Source of the DNA: Macrotis lagotis
Taxonomy: Eukaryota > Chordata > Mammalia > Peramelemorphia > Peramelidae
DNA: 64,000 nt
NCBI RefSeq assembly: GCF_037893015.1
Contig: NC_133666.1
Span: 2,509,467 to 2,573,466 of the forward strand
Reading direction: 5' to 3'
Shown here: positions 9,826 through 57,123 of the stretch, in pieces
Layout of the letters: every line of letters begins with the position of its first letter
How positions within the stretch are numbered: position 1 is the first letter of the stretch
Program-made: the position numbers and the translations under genes
The notes under the pieces: model-generated
Seen by the model: the letters and a program-made list of their open reading frames with translations, nothing else
What the model was told of the DNA's origin: nothing
Databases searched by the model: none

Positions 9826-9833
9826 GCCATCTT
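9826..9833 (-). promoter_or_regulatory. YY1-type motif
   Basis: GCCATCTT on +, i.e. AAGATGGC on -, a core YY1 site, ~140 bp upstream of the start codon in the CpG island. Confidence 0.45.
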
Positions 9834-9854
9834 CGGCAGGCGGGCGCCCTGGGA

Positions 9855-9855
<1 letters not shown>

Positions 9856-9888
<33 letters not shown>
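9856..9888 (+). repeat. (CGG)11 trinucleotide tract in the 5' UTR
   Basis: Eleven uninterrupted CGG units, followed by further GGC-rich sequence to ~9925, ending 50-90 bp upstream of the ATG. Read in the frame of the downstream CDS it gives a polyalanine run. Confidence 0.9.
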
Positions 9889-9889
<1 letters not shown>

Positions 9890-9974
9890 CGCGGAGAGGG
9901 CGGAGGAGGAGGCGGCGGCGGCGGCCACGGCGGCGCGGGAGGGGGCCCGGCCCCGCCCCCGGCCCGCCGCCGGC

Positions 9975-10104
9975 ATGTCGGGCCAGTCCCTGAGCGACCG
10001 GCTGGCGGCGGCGCAGCACAGCGTCACCCGCTCGGCCGTGGCCAAGGCCGTGTGCAAGGCCAGCACCCACCAGATGCTGGGCCCCAAGCAGAAGCACCTG
10101 GACT
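9975..10104 (+). CDS. AP180-like exon 1
   Basis: Start chosen because MSGQSL is the conserved N-terminus of PICALM and SNAP91. The frame is open upstream to 9327, so the ATG rests on homology and a G at -3. Encodes residues 1-43, including K28, K38, K40 and H41; Q39 replaces the lysine of PICALM and SNAP91. Donor GTGAGT. Confidence 0.93.
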
Positions 10105-13100
10105 GTGAGTGCGGGCGGGGGCGGGGGGGGGGGCGCGGAAGGGGCCCCCCGAGGCCTTCCCGCCACGTCTCTTCCGGCGAGGGCTCAGGCCGCGGCGTCT
10201 CCCCGCTGCAGACCTGATCCACTGCACCAATGAGCTGAACATGAACATACCCCAGCTGGCCGACACGCTCCTGGAGAGGACCAGCAGCAGCAGCTGGGTG
10301 GTGGTGTTCAAGGCCCTCATCACCACCCACCACCTCATGATGTACGGCAACGAGGTGAGGGCCTCGGGGAGGGGGCGGGCGGCCCATGTGGGGAAGGGCC
10401 TCCGGGGCGCCCCTCTCCTGGCCCTGGCGGACTCCCCGTGAGGTCCGAGGCTTCTCGGCCCCAACGGGCTGCCTCTCGGAGGTGGGCACCTGACACCGCC
10501 CAGGGCCCCCCCCCCCCCCGGCTCGGGGTTCCGGGCACAGCCCCAAAGGCCCCCCGGGGTGGTCGGCCGGACGAGACCGGGGACCTGTAGGTGGCACCCC
10601 CCCACGAAAGCCACGGGGAAGCCGATATGCCCCAAATCGGCACCCTCCACGCGCGCCGTGGAGAGCAAGCACACTAACGGCAGCTTCCCGATCCTTTGGA
10701 CCCCTAGCGTTTCATGCAGTACCTGGCCTCACGGAATAGTCTGTTCAATTTAAGCAACTTCTTGGATAAAAGCATCTTACAGGGTAAGATCACGGCTCAG
10801 ATGGCAACGAATCGGGCGCTGGGACAGGCTAGGCTAGACCTGGCGACCCGGAGCGCGGCCCGGCCGCTGCTCTCGGATCGACAGCGGGGGCCGAGCCTAG
10901 AGGAGACCGCACCGAGGGTGGGTACCCACAGACGGAGTCTGTCCGTGAGGGGCCTGCCCGTGGATGAGGAGGCACACGGAGGCGGGAGGGGAACAGGGAT
11001 GCCCCCCCCCTACTCAGCAGCCCAAGGAAGGGATGCCTGAAACTCAGGCCCGGGTCTTTCCACCTCAAGTGTCGGGAATGCAAAGACCAATTTGCCTTGT
11101 TAAGGTGGCAGCAACCTCTCACCCCCAGGCCAGGGCCTTGAGAAACCAAGAACCCAGCAACCAACAACGAGTTGCAGGCCTGAGTCTGAGACTGTGACCC
11201 CTCGACCTCCCCCCTTCCTCCCCAGGGACAAGCAGGAAATGCTCTGCCAGCCCCCAAAGCTTTGCCACCCCTCTGCCTTTGCTGAGGACCTCCTCCAGGG
11301 CAGGCGGCTTTTGATCCACAAACCTGGACTTTGATGTTGGAACAATATGTTTCTGTCCAAAACCTGTGGTTTTTTTCCTTTTCAAAGAGAGGCCAGGATT
11401 CTCCTTTCCTTAATCACTCTCCTCCTAGAAACAAATGACGGGGCTAGGGGAAAAAAGCAACAACGAAGTCATCATCCACTCCATACTTGATGGAACATGG
11501 GGCCTTGTTACATTTCATAACTCATCTTGGGCCTATATGTAGCGTGATGACAAAACCAAGCAAGAGAGGAAGTCATCAAGGGCTCCACAGTCTCCATCCC
11601 GTGCGTCCATTGAAAGACCAGGGCCTGCTTGCCAACTTGGGGTGCCTACAATCTCCTCCCAGATCTCCCACAGACCTTCCCTTTTCCTTCTCTACAAAAT
11701 GAGGTGGTCTCCCACTCTGGCCAGATCACTTGGAAAGTCTCAAAGCCTTAGCTCAACTGATAGCTTGGTTGCCCCACTCAGACATAGCCCATGGCCTGCT
11801 TGGCAGCATCACCATGAGCCCGCCTCCTAGCTTCCTTGACCTCTTTCATTAAAAAAAAAAAAAAAATGCTGGCACCTTTGGCCTGGAAGCAGAGAGGGGC
11901 CAGCCCTCTTGATCAGCAGTTCCAGGACTCAGTGTTTTATTGCAGAAAGGGGGACCCTGGAGTGTGCAATGCCCAGGCACAGACTTGGGCTGAACTCATG
12001 TCTAGCATGCAGAGATAAATGTGAAAATAACCCACACATGTCTCTTTTTAGGCTATGACATGTCAACCTTCATCAGACGCTATAGCAGATACTTGAACGA
12101 GAAGGCACTTTCATATCGACTGGTAGCAGTTGACTTCACCAAAATGAAAAGAGGGTTAGTAAACCTTTGCAGGTTTTAAAAAAGAAAATGCAGCTGTATC
12201 GACCATACTGCTTCTGACGAAGCTTTTCCAGAGCACCACCAATTTGCAAAAAGCACCAGGGATCTCTCCCACTATTCTGCACTACAAGTGGAAAAAAGCC
12301 CTTGGTGGGAGTGCAAAAGCCCCCGCTCCTCACCTCCCGATAGGCTACTGCCAGAATGCTGATCCCACTTCATTGGGGGAGGGGTGGACATGGCCACAGG
12401 ACAGGCAACAACCCTGCTAAACCGTGTAGACCTTGCACTGTGTCACGCTCTACTGAACCATCCATCCACGGGTGCTCATGTGTATGTTGAGTGTGCACTC
12501 GTGGTGCACACATGTTACCCACACACACATGTGTTTTCTCTTTGCAGGCCGGACGGAGTCATGAGGACTATGCCTACCGAAAAGCTCCTGAAAACCCTCC
12601 CAATTATTCAGAATCAGCTGGATGTTCTGTTGGATTTTGATGTGAGGATTGGCTTTCTAAATACATTGCAATTGCTCTCTTGTTTTCCCCTCATTACACT
12701 TTCCCTGGGAGCCATCCCATAGAATCCAGACTTTTTTTCTTTAAAGACAGTCAGCCCAGTGAATCCAACGATACAGTGAAAAGAATTGGGCAAAATGTGG
12801 CCAGTCAGGGGATATGGAGGGTTCCTTTTCTTTAGAGACCCAGCTCGTTTTTCACATTTTTAAAGCATTCATGTGTGATTGTTGTCCAGTTTGTGTATGG
12901 GATAGTCTTTCCATGCCCTTGGTTCTCATCACTGTGGACACTATCACTTTGACTCTGAATCTGTTCACCGAGGTCTTTCCAGTCTTCTCTACCTTCATCA
13001 CACGGTTCATTTCTGACAACCCAAGAATCCCTCACTATATTCATGGAGCATGGTGTATTGAAGTCATTTCCCCAGGCCGGGAGGGCATTTACTTGCTTCA

Positions 13101-16100
13101 CCAGTTGTTTATTATGCCCAAAGGGTTGCTCTCATGTTGGCAGTGCCTATGAGGACTTTTTTTTTTTCTTAGTGGCTCCTCTAAGCCCAGACCACAGAGG
13201 GGTCATCGTGGCCCCTCGCTTAGTCCCAATTCCATGGGCTTTTCTAACTAGTTGTGCCAAAGCACCCAGAGGCCTATCTATCCCTCCTGACCCAATGGTC
13301 AGCCTTGGAATCGGTGATGTGGGACAGCCAGTAGTAGTGTCCAATTCTGCTTGCGGCAGCCATTTGTCACTAGTCTAGTGGGGACCCAACAGCTTTTGCT
13401 TTGGGGATTTCTCTTGTCTTTGCCTCTTGGCTCCCAAACCCTCCTCTGAGCAATTCGTTAGAACCCTTTTCCCCTTATTGCTTTCTCTCCTCAGTTTAAC
13501 TGTCTTAATTTTGCTCGATTACCCATAAGGTTTTGAATGTCATACAATTGAGTCCCTGCATTATCTTTTCTAAATCAGCTCTGTCCCTCATTGGTCTAAG
13601 AATTTCTAACCTCTTGAGGGATGGCCAAGGGAGATGATTTGAGGGGACTGTGTTCCAGGCCATCTTTGCATTTATTTGCAAATGGAGATGATGTGAGATT
13701 GGTCCCACCTGTTCACCAAATCCTCTGTTGTCCACAGGCACATCCCAATGAACTTACTAATGGTGTCATCAGTTCAGCATTCATGCACCTCTTCAAGGAT
13801 TCCATCCGACTGTTTGCAACCTACAACGAAGGGATTATTAACCTGCTAGGTACAATGCTGTTCTCCTCAGGTCATGGAGGGAGGGCAGAAGGCAGTCTGC
13901 TTTCTGAATTTACTTGTACTCGCATTGTATCCCCTTTATTCGAGGCCAATCCCTTTTCCCTGATGGAAACCAAGCTCCCCAGGGGCTGCCAAGGCCATCG
14001 GTTACACCCAAATGTGGCCTTGCCAAGTCTGGAGGCATGACTTTCTTGGATCTATGCACACGCTCACACACATTCCCCGGGGACTCCATGGTGAGGCCTT
14101 TAAGCCTGGCTTCCCATGATCCTATTCAGGTGAGAGCATCCTTCTGAAGTCACTCCTCACTTTTTTCTCCTGAGATAGAGGAGTGATTCCTTTCTGGGAG
14201 AGGATGCTCTAGACTGCCTCTTGGCCATTATAGGAAGAGAGGCAGAATGGCCAGAAGGTCAGATTTGGAGGCAGAAAGAGGTGGCTTCTGGGTCTGCCCC
14301 AGACACCTGGTAGCCAAGTTCATGCCACCTCAGGGCCTTGGGTAACTGGGAAAGGGGCATGGCCACTGAGGGAGTCCCCATGCTGAGACAGTCATACATC
14401 AAGACTTCCAAGCCACTGGGGCCTTTCTTTTCCTGGCCTCTGGTCGAGTTGGGAATATTTCATTTTGAGAATCTATTTCCTTCCATAAACTCATGTCCAG
14501 AATGGAGTAAGGCCGACGGCAGGGCAGAAGTGGGTCCCCATTAGACTAGTGACAAATAGCTGCCACAAATAGAATTGGACACTACTACTGGCTGCCCCAC
14601 ATTACCAATCCCAAGGCTGACCATTGGGTCAGGAGAGATAGATAGGCCCCCGGGTGCTTTGGCACAACTAGTTAGAAAAGCCCCACGGAATTGGACCAAG
14701 TGAGGGGCCACAATGACCCCTCTGTGGTCTGGGCTTAGAGGAGGCCACTAAGAAAAAATAAAGTCCTCATAGACACCGCCACTTTCCTAGAGATAAGGGA
14801 ACTGGGCTTCCAGTACTGCCCTTGGCAAGAATCTTGTAAGTGTTCCCCTCCCCGCTCCATGCCCCTCCCCCCCGACGTTTGGAGCCTTTGTCTGTTGATT
14901 GTAGAAAAATACTTCGACATGAAGAAGAACCAATGCAAAGAAGGCCTAGAGAGTTACAAGAAGTTCCTGGGAAGAATGGCCAAATTATCCGAGTTCCTGA
15001 AAGTGGCCGAGGTAATGTGGCATGGACCAGTTGCCATTCTCTGGCTTCCTCTTCCCATGGTTGGCTGCCCTACTCAAAGTGTGGTCTGCTGCCAGGGGCT
15101 TGGATTCTAATCCTTCTCCTCTCTCTGGTCTTTTTTCTCTAAAAGGGGAAGAATAAGCACTGTTGAATCTGCCTCCCTGCCCCTCCCCCCCCAGTCCCAC
15201 CTGTGGAGAGAGAATATCTCCCAAGCTCAGTAGTGGTGGCTGTTGACTTTCCTCAGTTTGTTGCTCCTCTTGGATTTCTCCTTCCCCTTCATTTCCCAGT
15301 CTGGCCTTTCCCCTCCTCAACCCAAAGATCCATCCCTTGTTACAAAGAATTAAAAAAAAAAGTAAGAAGCCCAGAGCCTAGCCATCTAGCCAGCTTGGGG
15401 CCTACCCTGTAGAGATCCGAGGACAACTTCTGGTGAAGGGGGGGGTCACCAGGGTGACAGAGTGGTGTGGCATCTCCTCCACTAAACTTTGTTTTTCTGT
15501 TCCCCAGGGGTGCTGAGCCTGCTGGGAAGGCTCTGGCCCTCTCTGGGGGCTCACTGGGGATTTAGTTCAAATGATGTAGCGATTCCAGGCCAGAAATGAG
15601 GGCTCTTCTCTCGAGTGTTTTCTCTTGTGACATAAGCAAATGCCAAGAACCCTCTTTGGTCCCCATGCATGAGTTAAGTACTCCCCCTAGGACCCAGGGC
15701 CCAAACAAACACCTTACACTCTCCCAGAGAAGTCACTGCAGGCTTTGGAGGAATTGCCTAGAGATTAAGAAGCACAAAATTATCAAAGGCCCAATTGAAG
15801 AGGGAGTAAGAGAGAGCCACACAAGGAGCCATCAGTGGGCCTACTTTATTGGCCGAGTGCCCCTGGGCAAGTCATGTCACCTCTCCGGGCATCCTGAGAG
15901 AGAGAGCCCAGAACCTGAAGGCAGTGAGGAGCCATGGACACTTCTCAGCTGCTTTGGGGAAAGGGCCACACAGACACCTTTGCTACTGACTGATTCAGTT
16001 GTTTTTTGTTTTTTTTTTTTTCTGACCTCTTGTGATTCCAGCAAGTTGGGATCGACCGAGCTGATATTCCTGATCTCACTCAGGTGAGTATCTTCTTGGG

Positions 16101-17719
16101 ACTGTTTTAGCCCATTTCCCTTTTGTGTCCTTCGGGGATTACATCAAATCCCTTCCTTTCTGATAAGCCATTTGCTCCCATCAACACTTCCCTGAGCTCC
16201 TTGGTGTGATGTAAAGGTGGTCTGGTGGGGCTAGGAAGGGGCCGGGCAGCATGGGATTTGTTAGAAATTTCTCCAAGGACCAAAGATGGGAGGGGAATAG
16301 GCTCTCCTATGGCATGCACTTGGTGACGATGCCTCTCTTTAGTCCCTGCTTGGGCTTTCATTGGTGTGTGCCAGTGCGGGGGGCGGGGCAGTCAGACCTT
16401 CCTGATTCCCATGTTGCCAGGGGGAGTCCTGGGCCCCAAGTTCAAATTCAGCTTCAAACACTTTCTGAGTGTTACCCTCACACCCTTTCTGTGTGCCCTA
16501 CTACCTGCCTCAGTTTATCTGTAAAACGGGGACCATGATGGTTGTGAGGATCCGATGAGCTCATCATTGTAAAGCAATCTGGGCATGCTGGCAGTAAAGA
16601 GTCATAAACAAGATTCATTGAGGACCTGGAACCCCAGGTCTGATACTTCCTGTCTGTGGGGACCCTTTGGGCCTTAGTTGGACTCGGGGATCTCTGGGCT
16701 CCCAGCCTTCAAGGGCATAAGTATAGAGAGACCAGACCAGTGATACACGGGGGGTGGGGGAAGCCCCCTTTGACCTGCTGTGGCAGCACCCCATGCTGAC
16801 CTTGGAACTCCTCTCTAGGCCCCAAGCAGCCTGTTTGAAGCCCTCGAACAACATGTGGCTTCTTTGGAAGGTCGCAGGTCGAAGGAGCTCTTGGCAGTTT
16901 ACAGGTAAGTGGTCACACACGCCTGCCTCCACTGGACCTTTTCTTCTCCACCTGCCTGCCCTGTTACCCTTCCCACCAGGGGACCTTGGACTCTGAAGTT
17001 GGTGGAAAGAGCCATCTCTTGGCAGGGGCTCCTGGACCCCCACTAGCTGGAAATTTGAGAAGTCCACGTTCCCCATATTCCTTTGCACCTGAGAACCGAG
17101 GCAGAGGCTGGCCAATCGTTGACCTCCCTGGGAGTGACCAAGAGAGGGAGCTTGGAACACTGAATGCCTTGAGCTACCCACCCCCCGCCTGGAGGAACTA
17201 CATGTGGAGCTAGTTCTACAGGCCTTGGGGGTCCAAAGCATCCCCTTTACAGTGCCACACAACTTGGTCTCTCCATCTGTGCCCCTTCTTTCCCTCAGTC
17301 TTCTCTCTCTCGCTGCTTCTCTGTCTCTCTCTTTGTCTCTATCTCTCTGTTTTTGTGTCTCTGCTTCTGTCTTTCTCTGACTCTCTGTTTCTCTCTCTCT
17401 GTCTCTGACTATATCTCTATCTCTGTCTCTGTGTCTGTCTATCTCTCTCTGTCTCTCTCTCTCTCCCTCTGCCTCTATCTCTCTCCGTCTGTCTCTCTGT
17501 CTCCTTCTGTCTCTCTCTCTGTCTCTCTCACTCTCTCCTCTCTCTTCTCTCTCCCTATTTCCTCTCTGCCTCTGTCTTTCTCTGTCTCTGGCTCTCTCTG
17601 TCTCCCTGTCACTCTCTCTGTCTCCCTCTCTCTTTGTCTCTCTGTCTGTCTTTATCTCTCTCTGTCTTTATCTCTCTCTCTTGCCCTCCCTCTCTGTCTC
17701 TTCCCACCTTCTGTCTATC

Positions 17720-17772
<53 letters not shown>

Positions 17773-17911
17773 TTTCTGTTATCTCACCCTAACTCTCTGT
17801 CTCTCTGCCTTTTTCTCTCTCTGTCTCCCTCTCCCTCTCCCTCTCTCTCCTTCTCTGTCTTTGTCTTTCTCTCTGTCTTTATCTATATCTCTATATCTCT
17901 ATCTCTGCCTC

Positions 17912-17962
<51 letters not shown>

Positions 17963-20900
17963 CTCAGTCTGTGTTTGTCTCTGTCTCTGTCTCTGCCTCT
18001 CTTGCTGCTTCTCTGTCTCACAGATATCCACCATCCACCTGTCCCACTGTCTCTCTTCTCTATCTGTCTCTGTCTCCTTGTCCCCAATTCTCTGTCCTTC
18101 TCTCCCTCCTCCACGTGTGGCCAGGGTACCTTTTGCTTTCTGTCATTTTCACCACCCTCCTACAATAATGGTGGTCATATCTGCTCCTGGGAGTCCTCCC
18201 AAGTGGTGTGCGCACTTGTGGTAGAGGCCTGTGGAGAGCCAGGGCTCCCTACATCCATTGACAACCTGCTTTAGGCCTTTAATTACTGCATGACGGTCAC
18301 CAAATCACTTCATGTTTTTGTGCCTCAGTTTACTCCTGTGTACAGTACAGTGTTGAATGGCCTTTCCTTTGCAGACTTCGTATTGGGAAAATCACCAGAG
18401 AGAAAGTCAGTGCGTTGTTTAGAACCCTTTAACTAAGTGCTCACCTTCATGATGAATTGCTCAGTCATAGAATGCCAATGGAGGGGCCACTAGATGGCAC
18501 TACAATGGATAGAGCATTGGCCCTGGAGTCAGGAGGACCTGAGTTCAAATCCAACCTCAGACAATTAATTACCTGTGTGGCCTTGGCCAAGTCACTCAAC
18601 CCCATTGCCTTACAAAAATAAAAAAAAAAAAAAGAATGACTGTGGCCTTATTTCTGGTAATAAACTTGAATGAAAGAATTAAATATATTTAAAAAAAACA
18701 ACAACTAGCAAAACGGGGTGTTTGTGGGAGCCGGGAAGGTCTACCACGTATGAGACGCCATGACTGATGGTGCTACCTTGAGGAGGGCTTTGCTCCCTTC
18801 TGAGCAGAAGCTAGAGCCCAAGGGAGGGGATGGAAGGAAGCTGCTTCCCTAGCTGACCCTACCTGTGCTCTGGCCCCCTTAGCTGGGGTATGGTGGGTAG
18901 GATAGGGTGAAGGCTGGCTCAGCCTCTAGGGGCTCATGGGTTCTGAGGAACCTGGCCTTGGGCTGCCTGGGGAGGAAGGCATTGGCTGTGGTCTATGTCC
19001 CGAGGTTACAGAGGTGGCAACCATCTGAATTTGGGGTGGCAGTGGGATCAGTTGGATTTTGGGGAATTCTGGGCTTCCCCTGGGGCCTAGCTAGAAGCCA
19101 AGTGGCTCGAACATCAAGTGGCACAAGGGTGTTTTTTGCCACCCTCCTCATCCTCACCCAGTTTTCCTGGGCAGAGAAAGGAGGTATTTGTTAAGCAGAT
19201 TAGCAGCAATGCCAGTTGAAGGGTGGATGTGGGATGGCAGGATCCCCATGGCTTTTTGTCCCTCCCTTCATTTCCCCATCTTTTAGGAGACCATCCCCTT
19301 GTACCCTGAAGGGTGTGCCCCCCAGCTGTGCTAGTGATCTCTTGTGCAGAAAAGTGGGTTGATCTTTTTGTTCCTTAAATGTTACAGCCCAAAGGTGCCT
19401 AGCTTTGTTTGGGTGCTGTGGCCTTCGGGTCTAGCCTTCTGCTCCCCATGATAACTTGTGTTACAGAGCAGACAACCTCTTGAGCGCCGTGTCCACACTT
19501 ACCAGCACTGGGAAGGCCTTTAGCCGGGTGGCGGAGAAGCAGAAGAAACAGATGTTGGAGGAAAACCAGGCATTCCTGCAGATCTCGAAGGTAGGCCGAT
19601 TCTGGCCCAATGCCTGCCTATCCAACCTGCCTCTGTTGGGCCCATAGGGGCACTGGGCTGGGGAACCTTCCAAGTGCCAACATAGATCCCGAACTGGGAG
19701 GTCGCCATCAGTGAGCTTGACATCCGGTTCTGATGGGGTTTTGCCTACCTTTCTGGGGCCCCTTCCAGTGGTGCCACTCATTGGCTGGCCTGCCTTGAAG
19801 ACTGAGGTCCATCTTCACAATATTGATGGAAAGTTTTGTCTTCCTTTGACTTGGGGACGGATTGGGAGTATTCCACATGTTATCCCATCAGGCAGCAGTA
19901 CAGAGGTTAAAGGTCACCTCTTAGGGGACTGCTAAGGGAACTGGTACTGCTTCTTACAGAACAGGGAGACTTCTGTAAGTTCTCTGGGAAGGGTTCTCAG
20001 GAAAAGGTGAGTTTGGAGTTAAACTGTAAGGGGCCATGCCAGGTGTGGAAACCATTTTTATGAAATTCTCATTTTCTCAAACTGGGCAGTGCGACTTCTC
20101 CAAACGCAAGATTTGAAGCCCTGGCGCTGGACTCCTTCCTGCGGCAACCCCTTGTGCTTCAGCTAGGCTATGTCCTTTGGTTCTAGGAGAAATTTTTGAA
20201 AGAAACCCCAGTGACCCCCGATTCTGCCTCTGTAGCCAAGTCTCCGAGGATTGGAGCAAGAAAAACCACGCCAGCCTCCCCTGCTGCCGACCTTTTGGCC
20301 CCCTTGATGTCTCCGCCCACCAGGTGAGATGAGCCCTTCCTTTGTGTTTCCCAGCTCCTCTGGCCCTGCCTTCAGTTGGGGAGCTGTGGGTAGACTTGGC
20401 TGCCCCCCAGCTGCCAGGCTGATCTCAGTCATCCTTGAAGTCTCCTTGGCTCCTCTTCTTTGGTCATGCACCTCATTCTGTGAGTCTCCTGCCACTTTCG
20501 TGCCAGATGCTAGTCTCAGTGGGGCCCATCCCGCCATTTGTCCACTCAGTTTTCAGCATCTCACTAGTCTCCACTAATATTCATCCACCATTGCAGCCTG
20601 GCTTGCCAACTTCTGAGGCGGGAAGGCTTCAGGCCCTGGGCTCAATCCCTCTTTGTGCCCCCCCCCCAGTCAGGTGACCCTGACAGGCAGAGCTGCTCCT
20701 GGTCCACATTGATGGCAGGTTTGTCCTCATTAGTAGTGCCTTCTGTTGAAGAAATGACAAGGCCAGCCTCCCTTCCAATAAAAAGCACCAGGCCCCAAGC
20801 ATAGCCATAGGTGCCCAGAAATGTTAAAAGAGGAAACTGAGGCCAACTAATCCATTACATTCTCACTGTAAGGGTTGGCAAACTACAGGCCTCAGGTGAA

Positions 20901-23900
20901 AGCCAGAATTTCTATAAGGGTGCATTTCTTAACCAGGGTGGCAAGGTGCCTTACAAACACCAAGTGGGGGCCCAGTTTGATTCTCAGGTCCTCGTTTTCT
21001 GACCTCCTGCTCCAGAAAATAACAGCTGGAAAGAGATTTCAGTAGTGACCAAAAGCCTCAGTCATTATCTCCAATGTGACATGGCACATCGAATAGGAGG
21101 AGATGTTAAAGTCCAAATGGGGAAAAGTAAAGGAAAGATGCAGAGAAGCCTGTTCAGCTCTGGGCAGCACAGACTGTACCTCAGAGTGGTTTAGGACTGG
21201 TTGTGGCCTTTCATCAGGCAGTAGAAAGACCCTGGGCCACTGTGGACCCTCCCTTGGCCTCATGTCTATATGCCTCTTTGATGCCCTATGACCCTTTGGG
21301 ACACGTAGATGACTCAGTGTGATGCCTGTTGACTGACTGTGGTGCATTTTCTATTTGTGATGGGAAAAATTTGGGGATGGGGGGGACTATCCTTTCCTGC
21401 CATTACATCATCCAGGTTGTCCCTCCTGGATAAAAAAGATAGGTAGCTTTTGCCTTCAAATCACACTGGAATGATCTGGTAAGGGTATGCATCATTATGT
21501 GTGTGATGGTAGGTCTGTGAGTGGGATATCAGACTGGGGACGAGGTAGCTCTCTGACCTGAGACATTTAACTGGGGGAGGGGTAGGTCTCTGACCTGGGA
21601 TATCAGACTAGGGAGGGGCAAGCCTGTGAGCAGGATATTTAATTGGGGGAGGGGGAGGTCCCTGAGCTGGATATCAGACTGGGGGAGGGGTAGGTCTATG
21701 AGAGGGATATGTGACTTTGTGTGAGGGTATGTATGTGAGACATATCTGACTGGGGGGGAAGTAAGTCAATGAAGGGGATATCTCAGTGGGGATGGGATAT
21801 GTCTGTGAGAGATCTGACTGGGTGAGCAATATGGATCTGTGGGGTTGGGCCTGTGGGAAGAATGTAGCTCTTTGAGTTGGGATGTGTCCATGTTGGGGAT
21901 ATATGTCTGTATGTATGTATATATGTGGGGGTGTGCAGCTATAGAGGGTTTGTGTTTGAAGATGTGTATATGGGGGTATGTTATTGTGGGGGGTACATAT
22001 GTGAGAGGGTATGGAGCCCTGATGGGGGGTTATACAGCTGTCTGGTGTGGCATGTAAGTGGTGGGGGTTATATGGCTGTGTGCACCAGTGCAGCCACTGG
22101 GAGCACATGCACTTTTGTGTTCGGACACCTCCCAATGCTGGTTTCAGAGAGAAGGGATTCTGATCGGGGTCTTTTCTGGAACCAGCCCCTTTTTCTGTTC
22201 TCCCCCAGCGTGGCCAACATCTCCGGGGATCTCTTTGGTCTTCAGCCCACCTTCGTTTTCCCCACACAGAACACTGCCGATGCTATGGGGACCCTAGGAA
22301 ACCAAAGCTGGGGAGCTGGTGAGTTTGTTCCCTGAGGCTGAATCTTGGGGAACTGCATTGTGTTCACGGGTCAGGGCTTCTGCCACACTCATTTTTGTTT
22401 CTTTTTTTTTTTTTAATTTTTATTTCTTGAAGGCAATGGAGTTAAGTGACTTGGCCAAGGCAATTATGAAGTGTCTGAGGGCAAATTTGAACTCATATCC
22501 TCCTGATTCCAGGAGTGCTCTATCCCCTGGGCCACCTAGCTGCCCCCCTCCACCACACTCACTTTTGCCATTCTTTTCCCTGCCTTCTTCTGAAACACTA
22601 TTCCAAGCATCATTAGGCTTTCCTGCTCAGGACTGGCTCCTCAGGCCACACCTCACTAATTTGGCCCAGCACCCCCTTTCAGAGGCTTCTTTAGCATAGA
22701 GTTCCAAAAGCAGATTCTTGGTTGTTCAAAATGTCTGTAAAATATAGAGTCAATGAACTTCAGGGGAGCAAAATGCCAAGGGCTAAAGGGCGAGACCTCT
22801 GGTTCCTTTCCCTTTCTTGATCATTTTCCCATGTAAGAATGGCCACCAGCTAAGGTGGGGACAATTCTAGGTCTAATGGGCATGCCTTTTGCTTGGATGC
22901 CTTGAGGCTGTATTTGTCTGTTCACCCCATAATATGTGTTCCTTCCTTCTCAGGGTTTCCTCAATTAGCTCCTACAAGTTCTGCTTCTTCAGAAGTCCCT
23001 ATGGATTTTGACTCTCTGTTTGGAACAAGATTGCCCAACTCCGAGTGCCAAGCAGCTAAAGGTAACAACCATGATGAGGCCTCTTGGTAGGGTGGCCACA
23101 GCCTGGTCTCTGACTTGAGGCAAACAGATATAAGCCTTGGGGTATTAGATCCTAGGGACTTTGTATTCGAGGGGGATGTCTGGTGGCAGGCCCTCTGTTG
23201 GCCAGGAGGTGCCAGGACCCTCTAGCAACTGGCCTTCCTGTTACTGAACACACACGGGGGGCATGCCTGTTGATGCAGGCTTTGATTTGCTTCCACTAAG
23301 ATCTTGCAAGAATTCTGCACAGTCTGGAGGTGAGTGAGATCTCCAATGATGCCTATGGAGTGCCGACCGTGGCAGACCTTGGTGGAATTGGTAAGATGTC
23401 CAGGTTGGTCTAAATTTGGGGACTGGGCCTCTTGGAGTCCCAAGGAGCTAGCTCCTCACTGGGTATTCAGCCACAGGGGATGAACTGACCACAGTGGCTA
23501 GTGACAGTTTGTCTACTGAGTGACAGACGGAAAGCAGTCTGCACCAATGGAAGTTTTCAGGTTCACGAACTGACAGCTTTGGGCAAGCATCAACCCAAGA
23601 TTTTCTCCGCAGCTTACGGGAATCCACAAAATAAGTAGCCAGTTCACATGGGGCTCAGTTAGTACACAAAGGGTAAAATACTTTTCCTAGTAGCTCCAAG
23701 GCCCTGATGGTGGAGCTCAGAGCTGATCAAGTCTTTCTGGAAGGAAATTTGAGACTAGGACCAATACACTAACTCTTTGACCCAGCAATACATCTGTACC
23801 CCAAAGTGATTAAAGAGGAAAAGGACCTGCATGTACAAGCAGCTGCTCTTTTAAAAAAAAGTAATAGTCATATTATTTGTTTTTCTACCAACATGGTATG

Positions 23901-38900: not shown

Positions 38901-41900
38901 AGGGAGGGGGAAACACCGACAGCCCAGAATCACGGAAAACAGGGAAGAGAAGGGAACATAAACAAGGAATTGGGGGGGAGCCTTCTCATAATAGTAAAAT
39001 AACAAGGTGAGTAGTTTGGCCTTAGTCAATTTAACACCAAAACCCATTCCTTTTTTTAAATAAAAATAAAAAATCTCTCTAGGAAGTGCTTAAGAGACAA
39101 CTCAGGGGTGAGGAGGGAGGGATCATATTACCCATTGTAACACGGGCAGAAAGCAGGCTCAAGGGGAGAGCCAATGAGAGCATTAGATGAACACTGCCTA
39201 AAAATCTAGGTAACCAAAATAACAAAGCAATTTAAATGAGACAACCCAAAGACATTTTTAGGGGAACTTTTCTCCCCATCTAACAAATCAATAGAAGAAC
39301 CCAAACACACAGATAATAGACAACCTAAACACATAAGGACAGATGAGGTACAAGCACAGATTACACAAATGCAACAGAATTTTACAAACATATCAACACA
39401 TATCAACAAGCACAGGCCAATGGCAAATTCTTAACATCTGAGGAATGCTGTGAGGGGAGATTTCAGTGTTGCATCCAGCCATCTCTCCCTCCCAAAGGCC
39501 AACCAAATGCATTCCTTGCTATCACAAAGAGCACCCAAAAGAGGGAACCTGGACATCACATCTGATATGGAATTCCCCTGCACCCCAATGTCTAGACCCA
39601 GAACCAGAACAAGCTTACCTCAGGAGGTGTAACACTTAGGCCAAATGGGGGATTGCAGTCGAGGAGAGGTTCATACTAAGACTACCTAGTACTGAGGCCC
39701 TGGAACATCCTCAGGGGCCGGTTCCCCTAGGAAAGGGAGAGACAGTCGGTTCAAACCTAAACCCAAGGCTCCCGTGGTCTCCTGTGGTGACACAAAACAC
39801 CAAGATCTCACTGGGGCCTCCAAATGCTGAACCCAAAGAGCAAGACAGAGACCAAAATTTGATAAGTTTGGAGATTTTTCATTTCCAGGGACTGCCTGGG
39901 GATGAAGAGTACCCAAATCAGACAGTCCTTGAGTGTTCAGGGGATAGGGTTTTAAGAGTGTTTGGAGGGGGGTACTGAGAGCAAGCAGGAGACAGAAGCA
40001 AAGACAGTGGTTAGATATATGTAAACATGGTAAAACATATGTAAACATGTTGCCGGATAGATAGGGGACTAGATAGAGTGAGAGTCTCTGTGTTCTGTCT
40101 GAACATGGTTCCTGAGATGGAGGGAGTCACATATTCCAGGGCTTCCCACAGGTTTAAGGGAATTGAATTTACTATCTTATGGTTTCAGCCACATCTGGGG
40201 AAGGGGAGGCAGTCCTGGGAGGAAGTCAGAATTTTACAGATACAGCAAGATAATGAAGCTAACAAGGGTGCTTTGTGAATCTTAGACAAATTTATGGTCT
40301 ATCGGTGACTCCCAGAGCCAAGCATTTGGGGCATGTCCGATTATTTTCAAACCCAAAGGCACCCAGCCAAAGTTATATTTCTGAGGAGTTTCTTGGGGCC
40401 AAGAAAGGTGTCAAGGACCCCTTCTATACAGGGATTACACAAATACTGATATTGTACTTCGGTGGGTATATCTTGTCTAGATTCTTTTGCTATGTTAATG
40501 TTGTATTTTACCAGCTGGAGGTGCCGTCTTTATTTTTCCTTCAAGTTTAGAATATAGGATATTTGCCTTGGTGTCACATACCCACCAAATTGGTGGGAGA
40601 TAAAGTGTTGTTTTTCTCGACATTTTATATTTTATTGGAAGAACCATTCAATGTACCTTTTCCCCATTGCTGTCTTCTTTTTGTCTTTTCCATCTCACAG
40701 GTGCCGAATCCATTGGGAACAGTCCCCTTCGTGACCCCCCAGCCCTTGATTTATGCACAGCCAGGCTTAAGCACCACTAATCCTTTTGCTCCTGTCTCTG
40801 GACCCCAGGTATGTTGGAGGTTGGAGAGGGAGCATATAAGCCAAAGTTGGGAGGGAACGGCGGTGGGGGGGGGGGGGCTGAACCCTAAATAGTAGCAAAG
40901 CACCTGGAGCTCATCAACACAGTACAAGAGGGCTTTGCTTTGGGTTCTTTCTTCATTAGATTTCTCAGTGTCCATGGGCAGGTCAACACCTTTTGTGTGC
41001 TCCTAGGATGCTCTTGCACCCCTTTTTTGGACAGGAAGGAACACTTATTCTGCTCTTTTCATTAGTAGACTTCATCAACCCCTCAGTGCCAGTCACACCA
41101 CTGTGTAGAACTGGCCTGTTCTCATCACATCAGGGGGCTTCAAGTGGGCATTTTTCTTTTTTTTTAAGTCATAAAGATTTCTTTTCCTCCTTTCCCACCT
41201 CCCCCTGGCCACTGACCTGAAAAGAAGTAAAGAAGTGTATCGTAAAAGCACTTCAGGCAGAAGAAATTCCCACATCAGCAATGTCCCCAAATAGCTGTCC
41301 TCATCTGTCCTCTTTGGGAGGATGTAGGCAACATGTTCGTCATATGACGAACATCATTTTGTTGGTCAGACTTCCCAACATTAGCAGTCATTTGTCTTGT
41401 CAGTGTGGTCAGTATTTGAGATGTTATTCTTTTGCTTCTGCATCAATTTGGACTTGTGGTGGTTGTTGTGTCAACCAGAGTACTTAAATTGTTAAAGTTT
41501 GATTCTCTTTACAATATTAATGTTATTGTATAAATTGTTCTCCTGGGGGCAGCTAGGTGGTGTAGTGGATAGAGCACCGACCTTGGAGTCAGGAGTACCT
41601 GAGTTCAAATCCTGCCTCAGACACTTAATAATTACCTAGCTGTGTGGCCTTGTGCAAGTCACTTAACCCCACTGCCTTGCAAAAAACTAAAAAAATTGTT
41701 CTCCTGGTTCTGTCCACTTTATTTTATATCAGTTCATACAAATCTTCCCAGGCTTTTCTGAAACCATCCCCCTCATCATTTCTTATAGCATGGTAGTAAT
41801 CAGAGTCATAAACTGCAACTTGTTCAGCCATTCCTTAATTGATGTCCACCTCAGTTTCCAGTCCTTTGCCACCACAGAGTTGCCATGAATATTTTTGATA

Positions 41901-47900: not shown

Positions 47901-49102
47901 CAAGTCATCTGTCATTGGAAGGTGGTCTGCTTCCTCGAAGTTCTTCCCTATACCCAGCCAGACCCTTTCATTGGTTCTTGCACTTTCATTTTCATCCTCC
48001 TTAGGAGACATCCTTCAAAAGTGAAATATTTAAAGTTCCCTCAACCAGAGATGTGCTGGGTCTTATCCACAGGCTTTCTGAAAGAGGGGCTTTGACTGGA
48101 TCTGGGAATGCCTAATTTTGCAATTCCCTGGAGTAATGCATCTTCAAGGAAGGAGTCTTGCTAATAAAATGACTAAAGCCAGGAAAGAAGCTGAGAGCTT
48201 TGTGCAGTTTAATGATGATGATGATGATGATGATGATGGTAATGGTGATAATATTAATAGCTACTATTTAGGTTAGGTGCTGTTATTATCTCTGCAAGGA
48301 GTAGAGTACAGGGCCTGAAGTCAGAAAGACCTGAATTCAAATCCAGCCTTAGGTGTTTCCTGGCTGTGAGTCTTGCTGTTTGCAAATCCCTTCACCTCCA
48401 CTTGCCGTAATCAGTAGCTCCTACCTTCCAGGGTTATTGTGAGGATCCAGTGAGGTGATATTTGTAAAGTTCAGGATCTGGCACCATGAAATAACTATTC
48501 CCTCCCTGTCTTCCCATTTTACAGATGACAAAACTAAGGCTGAGAGAGGTTAAATCACTTGCCCAAGATCACACAGCTAGTAATTATCTGCCACAGAGTT
48601 AATTTGATTTTACATCTTCCTGAAGTGGAGCCCAGTATTCTGTGCACTCAGCTGCCTGGATTCAATTCAAGATTTTCTATTTGGCTTAAGAATTCTTTGC
48701 TCCGGTGTGACATCCATAGTGCTGTCAGAGATTTGAAACTGGGAAGACTCGAGATCATCTAGTCTGACCCTCTCATTTTACTAATGAGGAAATTGAGATC
48801 CCAAGAGGGAAACTGACCTTGACTTGCTTAAGGTCCCATTTCAAGTAACAGCCTAGCTAGGAGCCTTCTCAGTCCAGACGTATCTTCTACCTGATCTAGA
48901 TGGAGATTTCAGTTTTTCTCCTCTTGTTTTAAGGGCTATTGAGACCTGAGGAGCCCACAAACAGCTGATAGTTGGAGTTTGTGAAAAAAAAATCCTAGTG
49001 CTTGGTTAACTTCACATTAGAAAAAATGGGCTAAAATGATTTACTTTTCATATCTCTCTCTCCCCTCCTGTCTCTCTCCTCTGGTTCTCTTTGTCCCTAT
49101 TG

Positions 49103-49172
<70 letters not shown>

Positions 49173-49279
49173 CCTCCCCCTCTCTCCCCCCTTCTCCCTC
49201 CATTTCTCTGTCCCTCTCTCCCTCTGTTATTTCCCCTCCTCCCCACTCCCAGCATTTCTCACAGAACCAGTTCATGTAG
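9975..49279 (+). CDS. AP180/CALM-family (ANTH) clathrin assembly protein, third paralogue (PICALM/SNAP91-like), complete, 19 coding exons
   Basis: Exons: 9975-10104, 10212-10354, 10708-10783, 12052-12154, 12548-12641, 13738-13849, 14905-15011, 16042-16083, 16819-16904, 19467-19590, 20187-20323, 22209-22318, 22954-23061, 28567-28698, 29051-29078, 31082-31205, 31910-31966, 40701-40808, 49265-49279. They sum to 1836 nt, 611 residues plus TAG, all phases agreeing (human PICALM is ~652). Residues ~1-290 are an ANTH domain with K28, K38, K40 and H41 at the positions of the CALM PI(4,5)P2 site. The tail carries DLL (374-376), [10 protein letters not shown] (~391-400), MDFDSLFG (438-445), DLDTSLAKL (491-499), NPF (598-600) and a C-terminal QFM. 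Known of the family: these proteins bind PIP2, clathrin, AP-2 and VAMP SNAREs and set coated-pit size. Sequence lies between PICALM and SNAP91; position between BRCC3 and VBP1 argues for a separate paralogue. Function here is inferred. Confidence 0.92.
10212..10354 (+). CDS. AP180-like exon 2
   Basis: Residues 44-91, from [18 protein letters not shown] to HHLMMYGNE. Acceptor CCGCTGCAG, donor GTGAGG. The preceding intron is only 107 bp. [17 protein letters not shown] is nearly invariant in the family. Confidence 0.93.
10708..10783 (+). CDS. AP180-like exon 3
   Basis: Residues 92-116, [19 protein letters not shown] then DKSILQ. Acceptor CCCCTAG, donor GTAAGA. ANTH helices. Confidence 0.93.
10784..12051 (+). 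other. AP180-like intron 3
   Basis: The 5' half is still GC-rich and belongs to the island shore. An A17 run occurs near 11850. No gene or clear mobile element was seen. Confidence 0.6.
12052..12154 (+). CDS. AP180-like exon 4
   Basis: [20 protein letters not shown] then [14 protein letters not shown]. The first glycine codon is split. Acceptor CTCTTTTTAG, donor GTTAGT. Confidence 0.93.
12548..12641 (+). CDS. AP180-like exon 5
   Basis: [20 protein letters not shown] then [12 protein letters not shown]. Proline replaces the alanine of PICALM GADGVMRTM. Acceptor CTCTTTGCAG, donor GTGAGG. Confidence 0.93.
13139..13388 (+). repeat. Inverted repeat, left arm (intron 5)
   Basis: About 250 bp, matching the reverse complement of 14531-14780 at roughly 90% by eye; many differences are CpG/TpG. 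Contains GCCCAGACCACAGAGGGGTC and TTTTCTAACTAGTTGTGCC. Not recognised as a named element. Confidence 0.9.
13738..13849 (+). CDS. AP180-like exon 6
   Basis: [20 protein letters not shown] then [17 protein letters not shown]. 112 nt, not a multiple of three. It lies between the two arms of a 250-bp inverted repeat. Acceptor TGTCCACAG, donor GTACAA. Confidence 0.93.
14531..14780 (-). repeat. Inverted repeat, right arm (intron 6)
   Basis: Reverse-complement partner of 13139-13388. The arms are of equal length with a ~1.14-kb spacer that contains exon 6. Confidence 0.9.
14905..15011 (+). CDS. AP180-like exon 7
   Basis: [20 protein letters not shown] then [16 protein letters not shown]. Closer to PICALM ([20 protein letters not shown]) than to SNAP91 in the first half. 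Acceptor TTGATTGTAG, donor GTAATG. Confidence 0.93.
16042..16083 (+). CDS. AP180-like exon 8 (42 nt)
   Basis: [14 protein letters not shown], the conserved end of the ANTH fold; the DLT form resembles SNAP91. Acceptor GTGATTCCAG, donor GTGAGT. In phase at both ends. Confidence 0.92.
16425..16615 (+). mobile_element. MIR relic
   Basis: Sense MIR: AAGTTCAAATTCAGC, then CTGCCTCAGTTTATCTGTAA, then TTGTGAGGATC. In intron 8. Confidence 0.7.
16819..16904 (+). CDS. AP180-like exon 9
   Basis: [18 protein letters not shown] ends the ANTH region; [10 protein letters not shown] starts the tail. Acceptor CCTCTCTAG, donor GTAAGT. Confidence 0.92.
17288..18112 (+). repeat. 0.8-kb CT-rich (TCTC/TCTG) pyrimidine tract
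   Basis: Almost uninterrupted pyrimidine-rich sequence with TCTG and TCTA interruptions and pure (TC)n blocks near 17725-17767 and 17914-17953. In intron 9. The long SLSLSL-type reading frames across it are artefacts of the repeat. Confidence 0.95.
18481..18636 (+). mobile_element. Marsupial tRNA-derived SINE
   Basis: GGGGCCACTAGATGGCACTA head, GAGTTCAAATCC box, CCCCATTGCCTTAC tail and A-run. In intron 9. Confidence 0.85.
19467..19590 (+). CDS. AP180-like exon 10
   Basis: [20 protein letters not shown] then a charged helix [22 protein letters not shown]. It corresponds to the PICALM segment that begins RATTLSNAVSSLASTG. Acceptor TGTTACAG, donor GTAGGC. Confidence 0.92.
20187..20323 (+). CDS. 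AP180-like exon 11
   Basis: [15 protein letters not shown]... with a low-complexity A/P/S/T stretch and ADLLAPL, which offers a DLL-type clathrin motif (residues 374-376). Acceptor TTGGTTCTAG, donor GTGAGA. Little identity with PICALM here, but phases fit exactly. Confidence 0.88.
21515..21850 (+). repeat. Degenerate GA/GT-rich minisatellite
   Basis: Roughly 40-50-bp units built around GATATCAGACTGGGGGAGGG and TAGGTCTGTGAG recur at least seven times with heavy decay; a GT-rich run continues to ~22080. In intron 11. Confidence 0.75.
22209..22318 (+). CDS. AP180-like exon 12
   Basis: [20 protein letters not shown] then [27 protein letters not shown] lines up with PICALM DLLDLQQPTF, a clathrin/adaptor-binding region. 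Acceptor CTCCCCCAG, donor GTGAGT. Confidence 0.92.
22398..22552 (-). mobile_element. Marsupial tRNA-derived SINE with target duplication
   Basis: Antisense copy (T-run, GTTAAGTGACTTGG, CCACCTAGCTGCCCCCC), flanked by a ~15-bp direct repeat CCACACTCATTTTTG at 22383-22397 and 22553-22567 with one mismatch. In intron 12. Confidence 0.9.
22954..23061 (+). CDS. AP180-like exon 13
   Basis: [16 protein letters not shown] then [18 protein letters not shown] matches PICALM VDFESVFG. Acceptor CCTTCTCAG, donor GTAACA. Confidence 0.92.
23740..24560. mobile_element. L1 3'-end fragments, mixed orientation
   Basis: Sense pieces: TTTGACCCAGCAATAC at ~23778 and TCTGGGGAATAGCTAAACAA at ~24487. Antisense piece: GTGTACAATGTTCTTCTGG at ~24290 followed by TTTCTTATAGAACA. 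These are standard features of mammalian L1 ORF2 and 3' ends; no intact frame. Confidence 0.75.
24592..24745 (+). mobile_element. Marsupial tRNA-derived SINE
   Basis: Full-length: GGGGCAGCTAGGTGAC to CCCCATTGCCTTGCAAAAAA. Flanked on both sides by AATAATAAATA-type sequence, probably its target duplication. Confidence 0.9.
24880..25460 (+). mobile_element. L1 3'-end fragment (sense)
   Basis: GAAGTGAGCAGAACCAAAG, then CACCTCCAGAGAGAGCAAAG, then a C/T-rich 3' end: the marsupial L1 ORF2 end and 3' UTR. No coding potential left. Confidence 0.75.
26013..26153 (-). mobile_element. Marsupial tRNA-derived SINE
   Basis: Antisense: TTGACTTGCCCAAGGACACA, GATTTGAACTCAGG, GCCACCTAGTTGCCC. Confidence 0.85.
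26545..26687 (-). mobile_element. Marsupial tRNA-derived SINE
   Basis: Antisense: GCAGTTAAGTGACTTGCCC, GATTTGAACTCATTT, CCACCTAGCTGTCCCCC. Confidence 0.85.
27653..27772 (+). mobile_element. Marsupial tRNA-derived SINE, internally deleted
   Basis: GGCAGCTGGGTGGCACAGTG head joined to AGTTTAAATCTGACC; about 25 bp are missing between them. Tail CACTTGCAAAACC. Confidence 0.8.
28255..28460 (+). mobile_element. MIR relic
   Basis: Sense MIR/THER1: GACCTTGGGCAAGTCACTTC, TTTGCCTCAGTTTCG, TGTAAAATGGGGATAA. Ends ~100 bp before exon 14. Confidence 0.85.
28567..28698 (+). CDS. AP180-like exon 14
   Basis: [14 protein letters not shown]... ending [11 protein letters not shown], equivalent to PICALM DLDSSLANLVG. 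Acceptor TCCTTTGCAG, donor GTAAGT. Confidence 0.92.
28747..28768 (+). repeat. (ATC)n microsatellite
   Basis: About seven perfect ATC units just downstream of exon 14. Confidence 0.9.
28765..28985 (-). mobile_element. MIR/THER1 relic
   Basis: Antisense: GATCCTCACAACAA, CATTTTACAGATGAGGAAAC, GTGACTTGCC. Fills most of intron 14. Confidence 0.85.
29051..29078 (+). CDS. AP180-like exon 15 (28-nt microexon)
   Basis: NLDFGASPK plus two bases; it corresponds to PICALM NLGIGNGTTK. Acceptor TTAAAACAG is pyrimidine-poor. The last exonic base and the donor GTAAGT fall inside a 15-bp target duplication made by a SINE, so the donor is repeated at 29394. Confidence 0.9.
29093..29392 (-). mobile_element. 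Chimeric tRNA-derived SINE inserted at the exon-15 splice donor
   Basis: Flanked by AGTAAGTTACTTTTT at 29078-29092 and 29393-29407. The insert is ~300 bp, about twice a usual copy. Its antisense SINE body (29093-29240) is separated from the SINE-like head end (~29375-29392, CCACCTAGTGGCCCC) by ~130 bp that are the reverse complement of sequence ~235 bp downstream. Confidence 0.9.
29274..29371 (+). repeat. Inverted repeat, left arm (inside the SINE insert)
   Basis: Contains CTGTTCTCCCACAATTCCAG and ACTCCAATCTTTACTACC; matches the reverse complement of 29508-29605 with few differences. Confidence 0.9.
29508..29605 (-). repeat. Inverted repeat, right arm
   Basis: Contains GGTAGTAGTAAAGATTGGAG and GAATTGTGGGAGAACAGCTG. 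The spacer to the left arm is ~135 bp, so the transcript can fold into a long hairpin in intron 15. Confidence 0.9.
29801..29822 (+). repeat. (CATC)n microsatellite
   Basis: Five to six CATC units in intron 15. Confidence 0.9.
31082..31205 (+). CDS. AP180-like exon 16
   Basis: [20 protein letters not shown] then [22 protein letters not shown]. Aligns with PICALM NDVNWSQPGEKKLTGGSNWQ. Acceptor CTCCTTCTAG, donor GTAAGA. Confidence 0.93.
31570..31652 (+). mobile_element. Truncated tRNA-derived SINE
   Basis: Short head (TAGCTGGTACAGTGGAT) joined to the tail (TTTTGCCTTGCAAAAACC); the middle is missing. Confidence 0.6.
31910..31966 (+). CDS. AP180-like exon 17
   Basis: [19 protein letters not shown], matching the region of PICALM that reads PPVMAYPATTPTGMIGYGIP. 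57 nt, in phase at both ends. Acceptor TTATTTCAG, donor GTAAGA. Confidence 0.9.
32640..33005. repeat. Imperfect palindromic repeat, unidentified
   Basis: Left arm ~32640-32735 (GGTACCACGATGTTTCAACA, GCAAAGTGCCAG) mirrors right arm ~32910-33005 (CTGGCACTTGGGCCAGCATT, GCTGAAACGTGGTGCCTCA). The loop is ~175 bp. TACTGATGAT-AGT-CATT also recurs directly at ~32829 and ~32993. Looks like a decayed palindromic (MITE-like) element; family not recognised. Confidence 0.65.
33170..33390 (-). mobile_element. THER1/MIR-type SINE
   Basis: GTTTGCAAAGTGCTTAACAC, CTCATTTGATTATCTC, GGGAGGTGCTATT, TTTGAACTCAGG, GCCACCTAGCTGCCTC: a nearly complete antisense copy. Confidence 0.85.
33528..33531 (+). repeat. ERV target-site duplication, left copy (GTGG)
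   Basis: GTGG directly precedes the left LTR; the same four bases follow the right LTR at 40462-40465. Confidence 0.75.
33532..34194 (-). repeat. ERV 3' LTR (element on -)
   Basis: 663 bp, + strand ends TGCTGAACCC...TTGTACTTCA, giving TG...CA termini on both strands. Contains the shared landmark GGTACTGAGAGCAAGCAGGA. Confidence 0.9.
34195..34212 (-). other. ERV polypurine tract
   Basis: On - the sequence reads AAAAAAAAGTGGGGAA immediately before the LTR start TGAAGTAC: a good polypurine tract with one T. Confidence 0.75.
39805..39822 (-). other. ERV primer-binding site, tRNA-Thr type
   Basis: On -, two bases after the 5' LTR, TGGAGGCCCCAGTGAGAT. It matches the complement of the 3' end of tRNA-Thr(UGU), TGGAGGCCCCAGCGAGAT, at 17 of 18 positions; the one change is C to T in a CpG. 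Confidence 0.85.
39825..40461 (-). repeat. ERV 5' LTR (element on -)
   Basis: 637 bp, homologous throughout to 33532-34194 with small indels. Its outer terminus has mutated from TG to CG (on -). Confidence 0.9.
40462..40465 (+). repeat. ERV target-site duplication, right copy (GTGG)
   Basis: Pairs with 33528-33531. Confidence 0.75.
40701..40808 (+). CDS. AP180-like exon 18
   Basis: [20 protein letters not shown] then [16 protein letters not shown]. Matches PICALM MTQPTLIYSQPVMRPPNPFGPVSGAQ. Carries the NPF motif, an EH-domain ligand. Acceptor ATCTCACAG, donor GTATGT. Confidence 0.93.
41547..41693 (+). mobile_element. Marsupial tRNA-derived SINE with target duplication
   Basis: Full-length copy inserted into the antisense L1, flanked by AATTGTTCTCCTGG at 41533-41546 and 41694-41707. 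Confidence 0.93.
45187..45495 (+). mobile_element. MAR-type SINE with RTE-like tail
   Basis: tRNA-like head GGGCAGCTAGATGGTGCAG followed by the long 3' part TCTGGCCACTGGACCCAGAT, GGCTCTGGAGGAGAAAGTGA and TTGAAAATGCAGGACAAAC. Confidence 0.85.
48212..48238 (+). repeat. (ATG)n microsatellite
   Basis: Nine ATG units in the last intron. Confidence 0.9.
48285..48485 (+). mobile_element. MIR relic
   Basis: AATTCAAATCCAGCC, TCCAGGGTTATTGTGAGGAT, GTGATATTTGTAAAG. Confidence 0.75.
48505..48870 (-). mobile_element. Two antisense MIR relics
   Basis: TTTTACAGATGACAAAAC with CACTTGCCCAAGATCACAC at ~48515-48585, and TTTTACTAATGAGGAAATTG at ~48775. Confidence 0.7.
49057..49250 (+). repeat. CT microsatellite adjoining the terminal exon
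   Basis: Contains an uninterrupted (CT)n block of ~65 bp (49105-49170), then CCCCCTC-rich sequence. It ends ~15 bp before the acceptor at 49264 and forms its pyrimidine tract. Confidence 0.95.
49265..49279 (+). CDS. AP180-like exon 19, terminal coding microexon with stop
   Basis: After acceptor CATTTCTCACAG the frame reads N-Q-F-M-stop (TAG 49277-49279). PICALM ends IQFM. Phase 0 fits exon 18. Chosen over an L1-derived candidate at 42384 on this match and its pyrimidine tract. Confidence 0.85.
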   Translation, partial: NQFM

Positions 49280-52909: not shown

Positions 52910-52920
52910 AAGATGGCGGC
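52910..52920 (+). promoter_or_regulatory. VBP1: YY1-type motif overlapping the VBP1 start codon
   Basis: AAGATGGCGGC, with the ATG of VBP1 inside it; this placement is typical of YY1-regulated housekeeping genes. Confidence 0.6.

Positions 52921-57090: not shown

Positions 57091-57123
<33 letters not shown>

Follow-up and report, generated by a model that had tools for sequence, protein, structure and literature searches.

A third CALM/AP180-family gene, probably encoding a clathrin adaptor, lies between BRCC3 and VBP1 in Macrotis lagotis

Structure of the locus and gene model

The window analysed here, a stretch of 64,000 nucleotides of the assembly of the greater bilby Macrotis lagotis (C9:2509467–2573466), carries a 19-exon gene of the CALM/AP180 family flanked by exons of BRCC3 upstream and of VBP1 downstream (Table 1). 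Both neighbours were located with human probes, with VBP1 exons matched across 52913–63631, and the place between BRCC3 and VBP1 assigned to the gene by a first-pass annotation of the same DNA was thereby confirmed. A 39-base tandem repeat of 5.7 copies (7181–7403) follows immediately past the last matched BRCC3 exon.

The gene model was rebuilt independently using tblastn with human PICALM as the probe, the ANTH part of which agrees with PDB entry 1hf8. This search returned 13 plus-strand blocks in collinear order from 9975 to 40811, along with a few weak ones out of order. The less conserved exons (starting at 22209, 22954 and 49265) were read by eye in stop-to-stop translations, and splice-aware scans provided the exons at 20187 and 31910, an alternative exon at 23301 and a 28-base microexon at 29051. 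A weak scan candidate for an extra exon between 22318 and 22954 was dropped; exons 12 and 13 join in phase. Joining the 19 exons yielded an open frame of 611 codons (1,836 bases including the stop), the same counts as in the first-pass annotation, in which the only stop is the terminal one, compared with 29 and 23 stops in the remaining two frames. All 18 introns of the rebuilt model have GT-AG splice sites. The gene spans 39 kb, and its first exon sits in a G+C-rich stretch (76% G+C at 9001–10000).

The deposited M. lagotis protein (P0001, 632 residues) is identical to the rebuilt protein outside splice choices: it includes the alternative exon at 23301–23390, uses a shifted acceptor near 28591 and has other last residues from a different terminal exon. 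Additional in-frame stretches after DFDSVFG are found in the marsupial models P0003, P0006, P0007 and P0012, and the last residues vary in P0003, P0006, P0011 and P0012, which we regard as a sign of loose splicing in the tail. An unbroken, intron-free frame of 600 codons (P0055), 97% identical to the protein of the caecilian Geotrypetes, lies on a contig of 6,170 bases that is most likely read-assembled; since the bilby gene spans tens of kilobases, this frame most likely derives from spliced RNA. Within the bilby introns, a TC-rich array of 0.7 kb occupies 17294–18019 (intron 9), and intron 17 holds a direct repeat pair (33532–34144 and 39825–40411; 84–93% alike, 89% over 300 bases, 6.27–6.29 kb apart), which is LTR-like and may perhaps mark an old element inserted in the gene.

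Table 1. Positions of the features in the window (1-based; + is the strand of the window as read)
Feature	Position	Strand	Remarks
BRCC3, last three matched exons	2402–7176	+	2402–2533, 4226–4270, 7027–7176; upstream neighbour
Exon 1	9975–10104	+	start codon; residues 1–43 including L6, V17, K28, K38, K40, H41
Exon 2	10212–10354	+	ANTH
Exon 3	10708–10783	+	ANTH
Exon 4	12052–12154	+	ANTH
Exon 5	12548–12641	+	ANTH
Exon 6	13738–13849	+	ANTH; L219
Exon 7	14905–15011	+	ANTH; F240, M244, L247, L251
Exon 8	16042–16083	+	ANTH; DIPDLTQ
Exon 9	16819–16904	+	ANTH end
Exon 10	19467–19590	+	
Exon 11	20187–20323	+	DLL motif
Exon 12	22209–22318	+	DLFGLQP
Exon 13	22954–23061	+	DFDSLFG
Alternative exon	23301–23390	+	in frame, 90 bases; outside the 611-codon model; matched by P0001
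Exon 14	28567–28698	+	DLDTSLAKL; later acceptor, start about 28591, fits P0001
Exon 15	29051–29078	+	microexon, 28 bases
Exon 16	31082–31205	+	
Exon 17	31910–31966	+	
Exon 18	40701–40808	+	NPF; ends in phase 0
Candidate last exon of P0001	44394–44405	+	RAI and stop; sole candidate found
Exon 19	49265–49279	+	NQFM and stop; further in-frame acceptor 12 bases upstream
VBP1 exon 1	52913–53005	+	start codon; ends in phase 0
VBP1 exon 2	59006–59130	+	EDVDAF...; starts in phase 0

Three family genes in one genome

A search of the bilby assembly with P0001 gave 36 matches among the best candidates, of which 17 were at C9:2.52–2.55 Mb, the position of the gene described here, seven at C1:815.94–816.00 Mb and six at C5:75.37–75.46 Mb. 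The C1 cluster corresponds to PICALM, with an exon of 47 residues identical to bilby PICALM at C1:815.96 Mb, and the C5 cluster to SNAP91, with an exon of 47 residues identical to pig SNAP91 at C5:75.40 Mb. The six remaining matches lie at C1:626.50, C1:6.53 and C3:75.77 Mb, and five of them hold stops. Of note, C1:626496265–626496977 contains a stop-broken ANTH-like stretch made of overlapping pieces, 37–49% like the third protein and equivalent to several exons, which probably represents a processed pseudogene derived from a gene of this family.

Phylogeny and origin

Relatives were collected in separate protein searches with the window protein, PICALM and SNAP91, each represented by the best 120 of about 8,000 scored rows (7,996 for the window protein), where a row is a 90% cluster under one name. 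Rows were hand-picked for taxon spread, with no named fish in any tree. The ANTH tree comprised 49 rows rooted on the Drosophila family member LAP (PDB 1hx8), whose ANTH domain aligned end to end and which lies outside the three vertebrate clades: 25 of the 120 third-gene rows together with the window protein, 12 of the 120 PICALM rows and 10 of the 120 SNAP91 rows. A tree from a longer alignment (599 columns, 36 rows, rooted on SNAP91) comprised 20 third-gene rows plus the window protein, nine PICALM and six SNAP91 rows, and a further tree was computed with 23, five and three rows, respectively.

In the ANTH tree, the bilby protein falls into a third clade of marsupials, echidna, reptiles, birds and amphibians (26 of the 49 rows; support 100/97), which is separate from the SNAP91 clade (100/97) and the PICALM clade (80/82). 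With the longer alignment, each of the families was supported by at least 100/99, the third clade (21 of the 36 rows) by 100/99, and the bilby gene again lay outside PICALM. Forcing the marsupial third copies into PICALM was rejected by the AU test (p 0.0055). The proposal of a separate paralogue, which the first-pass annotation would have abandoned had the protein nested within marsupial PICALM or SNAP91, is therefore upheld by the trees, by this test and by the location of the three bilby genes on three contigs. The same results bear on the idea, which the high similarity to PICALM might suggest, that the gene was copied recently from PICALM in marsupials or is a processed pseudogene: the gene has 18 introns and its clade is common to amphibians, reptiles and birds, which, with the AU result, leaves this explanation barely credible.

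We therefore favour, with a probability of roughly 0.84, the reading that the intact 19-exon frame is a third CALM/AP180-family gene, distinct from PICALM and SNAP91, whose protein is predicted from its sequence to serve as a CALM-like clathrin adaptor.

The third clade and PICALM formed the favoured pair in the ANTH tree (87/86), but neither a third clade–SNAP91 pairing (AU p 0.19) nor a PICALM–SNAP91 pairing (p 0.11) was rejected, so that PICALM is a tentative sister at most. On these trees, sampled from rows other than named fish, the 2R origin suggested at first pass is a possibility. Alternatively, the gene might have been copied from PICALM after 2R, in the lobe-finned or tetrapod line. 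PICALM is its closest relative, sharing 235 of 289 ANTH residues with it within the bilby and 260 with the echidna third protein, the two clades pair as described, and among the rows sampled no named fish attests to a greater age. Yet the stems of PICALM and of the third clade (0.33 and 0.26) are far longer than the non-marsupial third end branches (0.013–0.06), and the alternative family orders stand, so we hold this later duplication to be possible but less likely than not. In the further tree, one row on contigs no longer than 3,080 bases (P0116) also falls within the third clade, where its end branch of 0.25 exceeds that of every other third-gene row; we would guess that it comes from a fish or a lungfish.

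Taxonomic range and significance

Among the best 120 of the 7,996 rows scored with the window protein, 12 were from marsupials (eight species) and two from the echidna, and the remaining named rows were from birds, reptiles and amphibians (118 rows named in all). The retention proposed for marsupials holds but was drawn too narrowly, as the gene is also listed from amphibians, reptiles, birds and the echidna. Placental relatives numbered zero among the 118 named rows of these best 120. As the scores of these rows ran down to 816 bits and the better echidna row reached 854 bits, an intact, weakly diverged placental copy would be expected among them, and the result is consistent with loss in placentals.

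Sequences of the same orthologue group as the bilby gene are already deposited under provisional automatic names ('PICALM-like', 'prefoldin subunit 3 isoform X' and, in chicken, LOC772071), without a gene name of their own, and no description of the third gene was found in open-licence PMC papers. In the passages concerned, papers on clathrin adaptors regard CALM and AP180 as the pair found in vertebrates (PMC4824007, PMC4194041), and a survey of endocytic protein evolution, where it presents AP180 as the vertebrate paralogue of CALM, names that pair alone (PMC4824007). Placentals may be the exception in having two family genes. Knock-out or knock-down results in chicken, frog or opossum may be masked by the third gene, which is listed from frogs, reptiles, birds, the echidna and marsupials. 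As PICALM is described as an Alzheimer's disease risk locus (PMC4194041), the loss or retention of a paralogue offers a useful natural experiment.

Predicted protein

Members of the CALM/AP180 family help cells to build clathrin-coated vesicles. The full ANTH domain reported in the first-pass annotation was recovered with Pfam PF07651 (E 1.7e-72) at residues 22–283, covering profile positions 2–275 of 276, when the first 339 residues were searched, and the CALM structure 1hf8 aligns over residues 1–289. An AlphaFold prediction of P0001 from 32 rows had a mean pLDDT of 38.3 and was left unused for fold searching; the ANTH assignment rests on identity to the solved CALM structure. The protein had also been described as mixing PICALM-like and SNAP91-like residues. 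Both kinds are present but unevenly: of the 51 ANTH sites that distinguish PICALM from SNAP91, the bilby third protein agrees with PICALM at 32, with SNAP91 at 11 and with neither of them at 8, and is therefore no even mixture.

The binding residues described for CALM were inspected in turn. Membrane insertion has been ascribed to L6, I10 and V17 (PMC4406947); the bilby protein has L6, L10 and V17 in an N-terminal amphipathic helix with a hydrophobic moment of 0.20, compared with 0.21 in PICALM, which shares L6 and V17. The PtdIns(4,5)P2 site is given as a helix-1 lysine together with KKKH in helix 2 (PMC4194041), of which K28, K38, K40 and H41 are kept and K39 is replaced by Q. Position 39 is Q in all six aligned marsupials, S in Discoglossus, R in Geotrypetes and K in the remaining rows. 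In the VAMP groove, where mutation of L219, F240, M244, I247 and L251 is reported to abolish VAMP8 binding (PMC3267021), four of the five residues are identical and I247 is L. Because AP180 keeps all but one of these residues and yet, with V247, is reported in the same source not to bind VAMPs, sorting of VAMP SNAREs does not follow from these residues.

The tail contains two DLL-type motifs, one NPF, DFDSLFG and DLDTSLA, in keeping with the family tail motifs noted at first pass. Its layout is that of PICALM (DLL-type, DFDxxFG-like, DLDxSLA, NPF and a QFM end), except that a motif scan found neither DPF/W nor FxDxF in the bilby third-protein tail, whereas bilby PICALM has two DPF/W motifs and one FxDxF. 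Other differences from PICALM are the separate clade and locus (C9 compared with C1), the changes K39Q and I247 to L247, and fast evolution in marsupials. SNAP91 (AP180) shares the ANTH domain, with 214 of 289 residues identical between the bilby third protein and pig SNAP91, as well as sequence of 15 letters (not shown), but belongs to a separate clade and lies on C5; the tail of the pig protein, unlike that of the third protein, is about 600 residues long with 13 D[LIF][LFM] matches and no NPF.

In the mechanism suggested by these features, the N-terminal helix, together with the basic pocket, would anchor the third protein on PtdIns(4,5)P2-containing membrane, and its motif-poor tail would recruit clathrin and its partners weakly. 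With fewer AP2-type motifs than PICALM, the protein is therefore likely to modulate coat formation rather than to be one of the main builders of coats.

Evolutionary rate and X-linkage in marsupials

Relative-rate counts of ANTH changes, with turtle as the outgroup, were 37 in the bilby to 2 in the echidna, 32 to 1 for the koala and 31 to 1 for the opossum. Between bilby and koala, the third protein shows 94.5% identity in the ANTH domain and 72.9% in the tail, compared with 100% and 99.3% for PICALM, the ANTH domains of which are identical in bilby, koala and opossum. Where the 31 other rows are invariant (188 sites), the bilby third protein deviates at five positions (T7S, I10L, G19R, E33Q and N69S), and where the 17 other third-clade rows are invariant (257 sites), 14 changes are common to all six aligned marsupials. 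The marsupial stem measures 0.39 changes per column in the 599-column tree, compared with 0.055 for the echidna. This strong acceleration of the marsupial third branch relative to an unchanged PICALM ANTH domain was absent from the first-pass annotation.

Such rates, the tail divergence and the five bilby changes at otherwise invariant sites could indicate a gene decaying in marsupials, with an open frame but little expressed or no longer important, on its way to the loss inferred for placentals. The bilby frame is open with all splice sites GT-AG, however, none of the six aligned marsupials has a truncated or gapped ANTH domain, and the residues central to binding are intact except for K39Q, on which grounds we judge decay unlikely. 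The third gene, which we prefer to read as functional, has evolved fast in marsupials, probably under relaxed constraint.

HPRT1 is X-linked in marsupials. A human HPRT1 probe gave 18 matches in the bilby assembly, of which five exon-like ones (80–96% identity) lie at C9:29.97–29.99 Mb and the others on C1, C3, C5, C7 and elsewhere on C9. The bilby X is a neo-X formed when an autosome fused with the ancestral X, which accounts for about 84 Mb of it (PMC11965985). We infer that C9 is this neo-X, and the X-linkage proposed for marsupials is accordingly supported for the bilby. The rate change falls on the marsupial lineage, where X-linkage of the third gene is supported for the bilby at least. 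Among the HPRT1 matches, two intron-free copies (C1:836874365–836875006 and C5:147949631–147950273), the former open over 214 residues with 88% identity to the human protein, are probably both retrocopies.

Junction with VBP1

Read-through usually joins the penultimate exon of a gene to the second exon of the next. As exon 18, the penultimate one, ends in phase 0, it can be joined either to exon 19 or to VBP1 exon 2, which in the bilby window starts in the same phase. Three of the best 120 rows, from opossum (P0008), duck (P0045) and green turtle (P0086), are ANTH–prefoldin fusions, and the fusion point is the same in all three models (GPQ or GTQ followed by EDVD), corresponding to the exon 18/VBP1 exon 2 junction. 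This phase compatibility, and the use of the junction by the opossum, duck and turtle models, had gone unnoticed at first pass. Transcription is likely to run on into VBP1 in some lineages, which would give rise to the predicted ANTH–prefoldin chimeras; such a junction, if translated, would make an unusual domain pair.

Taken further, the read-through product could be the main present one, in which case the ANTH part would make up the 5' half of a larger locus rather than a stand-alone adaptor. The identical fusion point and the compatible phases fit with this, as do the 16 of the best 120 rows named 'prefoldin subunit 3', from 11 species (two marsupials and nine birds). Nevertheless, 107 of the best 120 rows end in QFM or HFM, encoded by the gene's own last exon (10 end otherwise), VBP1 has its own G+C-rich start, and automatic models can merge neighbouring genes, which makes this explanation very improbable compared with a gene that ends in its own exon 19. 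The fused models could in part be an effect of such merging, and the 'prefoldin subunit 3' names, which come without a listed prefoldin domain, probably reflect merging with VBP1.

A bolder scenario, which we put forward as speculation with odds well against it, is that a third CALM/AP180-family member dating from 2R survived in tetrapods between BRCC3 and VBP1, that placentals lost it and marsupials remodel it on the X, and that a conserved in-frame read-through joins ANTH to prefoldin subunit 3, creating a membrane-docked co-chaperone adaptor with no placental counterpart.

Upstream of the gene's own last exon, a TC dinucleotide array (49105–49225) stops about 40 bases 5' of exon 19, within its pyrimidine-rich approach, and changes in the length of this array could affect the use of the QFM exon.
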